DNA from: Alphaproteobacteria bacterium
GTDB lineage: Bacteria; Planctomycetota; Phycisphaerae; UBA1845
DNA: 64,000 nucleotides
Assembly: GCA_028285105.1 (NCBI GenBank)
Contig: JANQQE010000031.1
Location: forward strand, 62,001 to 126,000
Reading direction: 5' to 3'
The position numbers were made by a program, and so were the translations under genes. The notes under the pieces were generated by a model, which searched no databases, had not been told where the DNA came from, and worked only from the letters and a program-made list of their open reading frames with translations. Below, piece by piece: positions 39,338 through 42,176 of this stretch. Numbering within the stretch: position 1 is the stretch's first letter; each line of letters begins with the position of its first letter.

Positions 39338-39365
39338 TTGTACACTGTTGTCCCACCCCTATAAT
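39338..39365 (+). promoter_or_regulatory. Sigma70-like promoter of the polyamine cassette
   Basis: TTGTAC (39338-39343), a 16-bp spacer and a perfect TATAAT (39360-39365), about 45 bp before the arginine decarboxylase start. Confidence 0.65.
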
Positions 39366-39411
39366 CATGCCACTTTCAAGCGTAACCATTCGCCCTTCAG
39401 GAGCATGATGC

Positions 39412-39966
39412 ATGAGCGAAACGATGGTCCCCCGGCAGATGTTTTTCACCAAAGGCGTTGGAAAACACCGCAACAGTCTTCAGTCATTCGAAGCGGCGCT
39501 TCGCCATGCCGGCATTGCCCAATTCAACCTTGTTCGGGTGTCGAGTATTTTTCCCCCCAACTGTAAAATCGTTTCGCGCGCCCGCGGACTGAAAGAATTG
39601 CAACCGGGCGCGATCGTCCATTGCGTTATCGCTGAGATCAGAACCAATGAGCCGAATCGGTTGGTGGCGGCAGGTATTGGGTTGGCTCTTCCGGCCAAAA
39701 AAATCGACTACGGATATATCTCCGAGCATCACGCATATGGGCTGAACAATCGAAAGTGTTCCGACTACGTCGAGGATATGGCCGCTTCAATGCTTGCGAC
39801 GACGCATGATATCGAACTCGATCCCGAAAAAGCGTACGACGAGCGGTTGGAAATCTACAAGAGTAAGCGGCTTGTGATCAAAACCAGAGCCTTCTGCCAA
39901 ACGGCAGAGGGTGACAAGAACGGTCTTTGGACCACAGTGGTGGCTGCGGCAGTCTTTGTCCACTAA
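39412..39966 (+). CDS. Pyruvoyl-dependent arginine decarboxylase
   Basis: The enzyme converts arginine to agmatine with a pyruvoyl group made by self-cleavage. AGGAG lies eight bases before the ATG. The 184-residue sequence has the cleavage site VSSIFPP (Ser44-Ser45, Ser45 becoming pyruvoyl), LQPGAIVHCVIAEI, an acidic SEHHAYG region and the C-terminal KTRAFCQTAEGDKNGLWTTV, including the family's catalytic Glu region. It starts a cassette with a deoxyhypusine-synthase-like enzyme and an agmatinase. Confidence 0.93.
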   Translation: MSETMVPRQMFFTKGVGKHRNSLQSFEAALRHAGIAQFNLVRVSSIFPPNCKIVSRARGLKELQPGAIVHCVIAEIRTNEPNRLVAAGIGLALPAKKIDYGYISEHHAYGLNNRKCSDYVEDMAASMLATTHDIELDPEKAYDERLEIYKSKRLVIKTRAFCQTAEGDKNGLWTTVVAAAVFVH

Positions 39967-40059
39967 ATTGCTCGTCTCGAAACAAGTTCCAGGAGAGCGC
40001 TTGGTGACGGCCTGCCGTTGAGGTCCGGTTGTAGGTTCGCTTGGCGTCGGAGAATACCA

Positions 40060-41262
40060 TTGAGTGAAGACCGATACCCATGCGGAACGAAGCGACCGGA
40101 TTCAAGTTCGACCGGCGAGTCGAATAAGAATAACACATCCGGAAAATCGCTCGACTTGGATAAGTTGCCGGCGATCAACCCGCTGCAATTGAGTGGCAAC
40201 ACTGACGTCGCCGATATGATCGACGGCGTGTTTGCCAAAAGCGGTTTCAATGCGCGGCGACTGGCGGAAGGTGCGCAGCTTTATGCAAGGATGATCGACA
40301 ACAACACCACGATCGGCATGACGTTGGCTGGCGCGATGACGCCAATTGGTATGAGCGGTGTCATCATCGATTTGATGAAAGCCGGTTTCATCGACTTCAT
40401 TATTTCGACGGGTGCCAATCTTTATCACGATCTGCATCGCGCATACGACATGCCCATGGTGCAAGGCGATTTTCTGGCCGACGACAACATGCTGGCCGAC
40501 GAGAGCGTCGCGCGAATCTATGACGTATTCATCCACGACGACGACACGCTCGAGGGTACCGATGAGGTCATTCTTGAGGCGATGCGCGACCTCGACCCGG
40601 CGAAGCCATTCTCCAGCGCGAAATTGCACGATCAGATTGGACGACACGTCAACAAATCGGCATCGCATCCCGAGCGGTCATTGGTGGCATGGGCGGCGAA
40701 ATTGGGTGTGCCGATCTACACATCGTCACCGGGCGATTCGTCCATCGGAATGAATCTGGTCGTGCCTTATCTCTTTGACAAACCCATGAATCTGAATCCG
40801 GTCTTGGATGTGATCGAGACAGCGGCGATCGTGCGAGACGCCGAGACGAATGGCGTGGTAGAGGTGGGTGGCGGGTCGCCGAAGAATTTCTATCTGCAAA
40901 CGCAACCGACCCTGCATCAGATTCTGCATGACGACACCAAGGGCGGTCACGATTACTTTTTGCAATTGACGACCGACTCGCCGCATTGGGGCGGGTTGAG
41001 TGGAGCGACACCTTCCGAAGCGCGGAGTTGGGGGAAGGTCAAGGATGCGGTGTTAAATAATGTCGTGGTGTATTCGTGTGCATCGCTGACGCTTCCGTTG
41101 ATCGCACAGTATGTATTGACGAGGTGCAAAGCGCGCGAGCAGCGACGCCTTCTCGATCGATTGGATGCGATGGTGAAAGATTTGCGAAAGTCCGCCGAGT
41201 CCAATGAACTGCTTCGCAAAACGTACGCCGATCATTACGAATTTCCATCAATCAAAAAATGA
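40060..41262 (+). CDS. speY: Deoxyhypusine-synthase-like enzyme, probable homospermidine synthase
   Basis: TTG 40060 is preceded by GGAG at eight bases and gives about 400 residues. The NAD-binding fold shows GMTLAGAMTPIGMSGVIIDL, FIISTGANLYHDLH and the GGGSPK motif whose Lys275 corresponds to the lysine that carries the aminobutyl group in deoxyhypusine synthase. Bacteria lack eIF5A; the Anabaena homologue SpeY makes homospermidine from putrescine. Its place between arginine decarboxylase and agmatinase fits that role. The stop overlaps the agmatinase start (ATGA). Confidence 0.85.
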   Translation: MSEDRYPCGTKRPDSSSTGESNKNNTSGKSLDLDKLPAINPLQLSGNTDVADMIDGVFAKSGFNARRLAEGAQLYARMIDNNTTIGMTLAGAMTPIGMSGVIIDLMKAGFIDFIISTGANLYHDLHRAYDMPMVQGDFLADDNMLADESVARIYDVFIHDDDTLEGTDEVILEAMRDLDPAKPFSSAKLHDQIGRHVNKSASHPERSLVAWAAKLGVPIYTSSPGDSSIGMNLVVPYLFDKPMNLNPVLDVIETAAIVRDAETNGVVEVGGGSPKNFYLQTQPTLHQILHDDTKGGHDYFLQLTTDSPHWGGLSGATPSEARSWGKVKDAVLNNVVVYSCASLTLPLIAQYVLTRCKAREQRRLLDRLDAMVKDLRKSAESNELLRKTYADHYEFPSIKK

Positions 41263-42128
41263 CGCACGATTTCCTGGGACTGGAAGCGAAGCACAGCGAC
41301 TATCGCAAATCACGGTTTGCGGTTTTGCCTGTGCCATACGATGCGACGGTCAGCTATCAGGTGGGTACGCGCAACGGACCGATGGCGATCCTCACCGCGT
41401 CGCAACAAGTTGAATTGTTCGACGAGGAACTGGGCACTGAACCATTCCGAGCCGGTATCAGCACGCTAGGTCCTGTTGAAGTTGCAAGTGAAGGTCCGGC
41501 AGCGATGCACGAAGCGATCTACCTTGCGGCTCGCAAGCCGGTTCGCGATGGGAAGTTCTTGTTCGGACTGGGTGGCGAACACGGTGTGACCAGCGGGCTC
41601 GTTCGGGCGGTGGCTGACAAACACAAGAAGCTTTCGATACTTCAAATCGACGCACATTTGGATTTGCGAGACAGTTACGACGGCACGCCATATTCCCACG
41701 CTTCGGTGATGCGACGGTGTCTCGATCATGTTGATACCGTAGTTCCAGTCGGCATCCGCAACGTCGCCAGGGAGGAATCGACTTTCCTCAAGAAGTCTGG
41801 CATCGATCCAATCTACGCACGCGATTGTTGCAGCGGTGGCGAATGGATCGAACGTGCGCTCGATGGGCTTGGCGATACGGTTTATGTCACCATCGACATC
41901 GATGGATTCGACCCTGCATATGCACCGGGAACCGGTACGCCGGAACCGGGCGGACTCGACTGGTATAAGGTGACAGCACTCCTCCACTGCGTCGCCCAGC
42001 AGCGCAAAATCGTCGCCGCCGACATCGTCGAAGTGCTGCCCATTCCCGGGCAAGCCGTCACAGAATTCCTTGCAGCACGACTCGCATATCGACTGATGGC
42101 ATACGTAACTGCCGCCGCCGCCAAATAG
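41259..42128 (+). CDS. speB: Agmatinase (arginase family)
   Basis: Agmatinase hydrolyses agmatine to putrescine and urea using two Mn ions. The metal ligands are visible in GGEHGVTSG (His), IDAHLD (Asp131, His133, Asp135) and DIDGFD (Asp213, Asp215, followed by PAYAPGTGTPEPGG). The 289-residue length is normal. The start codon overlaps the previous stop by four bases, so translation is coupled to the deoxyhypusine-synthase-like gene. Another arginase-family activity cannot be excluded, but the upstream decarboxylase favours agmatine. Confidence 0.9.
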   Translation: MTHDFLGLEAKHSDYRKSRFAVLPVPYDATVSYQVGTRNGPMAILTASQQVELFDEELGTEPFRAGISTLGPVEVASEGPAAMHEAIYLAARKPVRDGKFLFGLGGEHGVTSGLVRAVADKHKKLSILQIDAHLDLRDSYDGTPYSHASVMRRCLDHVDTVVPVGIRNVAREESTFLKKSGIDPIYARDCCSGGEWIERALDGLGDTVYVTIDIDGFDPAYAPGTGTPEPGGLDWYKVTALLHCVAQQRKIVAADIVEVLPIPGQAVTEFLAARLAYRLMAYVTAAAAK

Positions 42129-42147: not shown

Positions 42148-42176
42148 TTGTGACAATCCGGCCACCCTCCTATAAT
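42148..42176 (+). promoter_or_regulatory. Sigma70-like promoter of thiS-thiG
   Basis: TTGTGA (42148-42153), a 17-bp spacer and a perfect TATAAT (42171-42176). It begins 19 bp after the agmatinase stop. No TPP-riboswitch signature lies between it and thiS. Confidence 0.7.

Follow-up and report, generated by a model that had tools for sequence, protein, structure and literature searches.

A probable operon for homospermidine formation with a pyruvoyl arginine decarboxylase, a SpeY-type protein and agmatinase in a planctomycete

Bacteria, to our knowledge, lack eIF5A. A gene for a protein with the deoxyhypusine synthase (DHS) fold, placed between genes for a pyruvoyl-dependent arginine decarboxylase (PvlArgDC) and an agmatinase (SpeB), raises the question of what this protein acts on and which polyamine the three products make together. 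The genes lie in the window, the 64,000-nucleotide stretch of DNA analyzed here (G000:C24:62001-126000), which comes from a bin of 4.8 Mb (98% complete); those of its near relatives that carry names are metagenome genomes from Phycisphaerae and other Planctomycetota. We favor, with a probability of about 0.88, the reading that the three genes form one operon leading from arginine via agmatine and putrescine to homospermidine. In this pathway, PvlArgDC would cleave itself to generate a pyruvoyl group and decarboxylate arginine to agmatine, SpeB would hydrolyze agmatine to putrescine and urea, and the middle protein, SpeY, would use NAD+ and an imine on Lys326 to pass the aminobutyl group of one putrescine to another, giving sym-homospermidine. 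This compound is probably the only triamine made by the cell. The same simple model was put forward in a first-pass annotation, and family assignment, tree topology and genome content all support it.

The three genes and their boundaries

The genes stand head to tail on the plus strand in the order PvlArgDC, DHS-fold protein, agmatinase, and matches to PF01862, PF01916 and PF00491 confirm the genes, order and strand given for this cassette in the first-pass annotation. With dN/dS values of roughly 0.03-0.05 in comparison with the nearest relative, all three are real genes under strong purifying selection. The first (39412..39966, plus strand) encodes a PvlArgDC of 184 aa that matches PF01862 (E 1.6e-59; 201 bits, cut-off 22.7) and TIGR00286 (130 bits, over the cut-off of 107) and falls just under the narrower NF009064 (200.9 bits against a cut-off of 207). 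Alignment with M. jannaschii 1n2m places the predicted self-cleavage at Ser44/Ser45 (39541-39546, plus strand), and Asn39, Ser44, Ser45 and Glu105 are invariant in every relative covering these positions; the protein has the Ser-Ser site, the active-site Asn and Glu and the above-threshold model score that characterize the family. The earlier view that a pyruvoyl enzyme stands here in place of the PLP-type SpeA of Anabaena is well founded. The third gene (41259..42128, plus strand) encodes a ureohydrolase of 289 aa, SpeB, with matches to PF00491 (E 3.2e-69) and TIGR01230 (240 bits, cut-off 174). Its metal ligands H108, D131, H133, D135, D213 and D215 are invariant in 52 relatives; the above-threshold score and the full set of six Mn ligands identify an agmatinase, with agmatine as the predicted substrate.

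The middle gene encodes 400 aa (40060..41262, plus strand). The ORF caller began it at 40018; the conserved start is a TTG at 40060 preceded by GGAG. Relatives show ATG, TTG or GTG at this position, and the closest ones also have GGAG upstream. The product matches PF01916 (E 1.6e-76), and its AlphaFold model (pLDDT 87) returned only deoxyhypusine synthases, archaeal and human, as top Foldseek matches (E 2e-17). Both the DHS fold and the imine-forming lysine expected of SpeY are present, the latter being the invariant Lys326 of the motif SWGK (41035..41037, plus strand), which aligns with human DHS Lys329. The lysine of GGGSPK, previously named as catalytic, does exist in the protein but corresponds to human K287. 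Two further DHS-like subfamilies of planctomycetes (L086, L100, L102-L105; L089, L090, L110) have Arg or Gly in place of this GGG..K lysine.

Overlapping stop and start codons had been proposed for the cassette; this holds for genes 2 and 3 (ATGA) and fails for genes 1 and 2, which are separated by 93 nt. The SpeY/SpeB overlap is a feature of the genus, with gaps of 14-266 nt elsewhere. Position 39338, formerly taken as the start of the cassette, instead opens a probable promoter (TTGTAC, 16 nt, TATAAT; 39338..39365, plus strand) ahead of the first gene at 39412. Here CTTGTACAC together with TATAATC is retained in four members of the genus, while the flanking DNA diverges; a generic promoter scan misses the site because its -35 element matches the consensus at only 3 of 6 positions. 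Beyond the cassette, a promoter-like site (TTGTGA-17-TATAAT, 10/12; 42148..42176, plus strand), likewise conserved in the genus, lies upstream of thiS-thiG and points to 42128 as the likely end of the cassette. With genus-conserved promoter-like sites on either side, the cassette looks like a transcription unit of its own. An Rfam search of the cassette region gave no match.

Subfamily of the middle protein

The best NCBIfam model for the middle protein is PRK00770 (homospermidine biosynthesis protein), at 414.5 bits, whereas every other DHS-family model gives 253 bits or less. This score is below the 450 bits of strict PRK00770 membership, a cut-off that the lineage itself straddles, with three more distant members at 473-522 bits and two others at 409-438. 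In a tree from a quick search, with SH-aLRT as its sole measure of support, the protein falls inside a clade of 39 rows (SH-aLRT 99), apart from the PRK02492 clade. We assign it on these features to SpeY, the bacterial homospermidine synthase, and predict that it works like SpeY though it scores below strict membership. PRK02492, the model of caldomycin synthase (CdmS), gives it 179 bits against a cut-off of 500, and the four PRK02492 members tested score 509-592. Models of deoxyhypusine synthase proper give 114-253 bits against cut-offs of 304-434, and the pocket residues Asp243, His288 and Tyr305 of human DHS are replaced by Met, Asn and Gln.

The CdmS pocket, in which a docking model has given the residues their roles (PMC10981699), offers a further comparison. 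Its columns were fixed by the Trichormus PRK02492 protein, which has all six residues at the expected spacing; counting distances from the catalytic lysine was rejected, as it fits Trichormus only and indels spoil the other rows. At the columns of CdmS Ser67, Glu136, Asp143, Phe204, Leu286 and Glu293, the window protein carries Ala, Asp, Asp, Met, Leu and Glu, and it does not retain the full modelled guanidine pocket of Ser67, Phe204, Glu136, Asp143 and Glu293. All members of the SpeY group have Ala where CdmS has Ser67 and either Met or Leu where it has Phe204, whereas nearly all CdmS-type relatives keep both Ser67 and Phe204. Leu286 and Glu293 are not diagnostic of CdmS, archaeal DHS carrying both. 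Comparison of subfamily and gene content is a means of separating SpeY from caldomycin synthase, two enzymes easily confused in databases.

Gene content and the probable substrate

The identity, conservation and operon layout of the genes were observed directly; we infer the substrates and the product from the families, the content of the genome and that of its relatives. In the 98% complete bin, no AdoMet decarboxylase (AdoMetDC), canonical spermidine synthase (SpeE) or AguA was found; there is one PF00491 protein, and the single PF02784 protein is LysA. This inventory points to putrescine made by the operon as the likely aminobutyl donor and acceptor. It is also the reason why spermidine is not an obvious donor: AdoMetDC and canonical SpeE are missing, and the only PF02784 protein is LysA. 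The nearest things to SpeE in the genome are two large membrane fusions, L112 on C6 (open frame of 884 aa) and L113 on C4 (763 aa), in which a spermidine-synthase-like domain is recognized only weakly, at 35-43 bits. SpeY homologues produce homospermidine from putrescine (PMC9992855), and cultured planctomycetes contain sym-homospermidine, which is the sole polyamine in several genera (PMC4334474, Table 8).

The order PvlArgDC-SpeY-SpeB recurs in 16 other genomes of the same taxonomic order and in G228, a member of another family (SpeY identity, 49%). A profile search found no PF00491 protein in G297, G309, G313, G321, G329 (97-100% complete) and G345 (55%), absence being judged here in metagenome bins, where a contig may be missing and some of which have 4-6% contamination. 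The SpeY proteins of these six genomes are 57-66% identical to that of the window and, with that of G333, form a clade (SH-aLRT 100) nested in the 39-row SpeY clade. All six have AguA (325-382 bits) adjoined by AguB, and the five checked each have a SpeA-sized arginine decarboxylase, one of them identified as SpeA (912 bits). In these ureohydrolase-free genomes of the SpeY clade, which have AguA and AguB, SpeY is expected to use putrescine, except if a guanidino product is itself processed by AguA/AguB. A ureohydrolase occurs in about 22 of 24 CdmS-type genomes, as opposed to 76% overall, a difference too small to serve as evidence. Also set aside was a PF02784 protein that scores 180 bits with the LysA model (cut-off 298) and adjoins a SpeY from the more distant 44% group.

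The decarboxylase varies among these relatives. A SpeA-sized PLP decarboxylase is present in 14 of 14 scanned members of the order (SpeY clade, outside genus g211) that lack a full PvlArgDC and in none of nine scanned genomes that have one, the genomes being phylogenetically nonindependent. One of the 14, G309, also has a partial PvlArgDC match on a 4.5-kb contig. In the g211 genomes, which have SpeY and SpeB, neither PvlArgDC nor SpeA was found; two of the three encode an AdoMetDC-like protein of 133-134 aa with a very low score (L150:4953-5354, L151:4947-5345). Related layouts occur with other DHS-like proteins. In G001 (L092:3012-5536), the layout of the window cassette is repeated by PvlArgDC, SpeB and, between them, a protein from a different DHS-like subfamily (best model PRK00805, 365 bits, under its cut-off). 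In G278, of the same class, three consecutive minus-strand genes (L095:4010-6412) encode an AdoMetDC-like protein (candidate SpeDA), a PRK02492 protein (571 bits) and SpeB, and may form a planctomycete operon for the caldomycin route. On a Sphingomonas plasmid (L069:3479-5948), a PRK02492 protein adjoins a type III PLP decarboxylase.

Several other substrates have to be weighed against putrescine. The middle enzyme might act on agmatine like caldomycin synthase, with the ureohydrolase working afterwards. Such chemistry exists in Thermus, where a DHS homologue is paired with a ureohydrolase (PMC10981699); the SpeY and SpeB genes overlap; and the window protein shares Leu, Glu and Asp at the positions of CdmS Leu286, Glu293 and Asp143. 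We nonetheless consider it quite improbable, given the PRK02492 score of 179 bits (cut-off 500) against 414 for PRK00770, the replacement of Ser67 and Phe204 by Ala and Met, the nondiagnostic nature of the shared Leu286/Glu293 and the orthologues in six genomes without any ureohydrolase. The first-pass annotation had raised action on agmatine as a new route. These orthologues leave the idea unsupported for the window protein, and the route is already known from Thermus caldomycin synthase (2024; PMC10981699). Nor does the position of the gene ahead of agmatinase, which had been offered as a clue, provide an argument: we rejected substrate assignment from gene order, as SpeY and SpeB are often apart in relatives. 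Also improbable is that, in the cassette lineages specifically, SpeY also or mainly couples agmatine and SpeB hydrolyzes the resulting guanidino-polyamine; were this true, the SpeY clade would have two substrates, set by gene context.

DHS-fold enzymes often use spermidine (PMC10981699), and transfer of an aminobutyl group from externally supplied spermidine, the reaction of the plant-type homospermidine synthase, would fit that habit. It is very unlikely in a genome that lacks AdoMetDC and canonical SpeE and whose operon would itself make putrescine. Least credible is modification of a protein lysine (e.g., in EF-P) in the manner of true deoxyhypusine synthase. The fold and the catalytic lysine are retained, but the pocket has other residues than DHS at the positions numbered 105, 106, 137, 167, 243, 288 and 305 in the human enzyme, the DHS models reach only 114-253 bits, under their cut-offs, and bacteria are generally held to have no eIF5A.

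Comparison with known systems

Several described systems resemble the cassette in part. In haloarchaea, DHS and agmatinase genes also cluster and PvlArgDC makes agmatine; there, however, the target is aIF5A, an agmatine-transfer model being proposed but unproven, and the cluster includes aIF5A, whereas no aIF5A gene adjoins the window cassette (PMC5178350). Thermus thermophilus CdmS and TtSpeBap likewise combine a DHS-fold enzyme with a ureohydrolase to give homospermidine, but caldomycin synthase belongs to the PRK02492 subfamily, has Ser67/Phe204 where the window SpeY has Ala/Met, and couples two agmatines before the ureohydrolase yields homospermidine (PMC10981699). The SpeDA-SpeB-SpeY clusters of Marinimicrobia and others encode a pyruvoyl arginine decarboxylase, agmatinase and SpeY, with homospermidine as the proposed product. 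Their decarboxylase derives from AdoMet decarboxylase (SpeD), whereas the window has the unrelated PvlArgDC, in the order PvlArgDC-SpeY-SpeB (PMC10407285). Anabaena, according to the account of Burnat 2018 given in PMC9992855, carries out the same three reactions with SpeA, SpeB and SpeY, a DHS homologue making homospermidine, but its arginine decarboxylase is PLP dependent, in contrast to the PvlArgDC of the window.

Our literature search found no paper describing PvlArgDC together with SpeY and SpeB. The pathway itself is known, and the novelty is limited to an archaeal-type PvlArgDC in an interchangeable decarboxylase slot. The cassette would thus add another nonhomologous arginine decarboxylase able to feed the same homospermidine synthase, and it suggests how many planctomycetes produce their characteristic polyamine.
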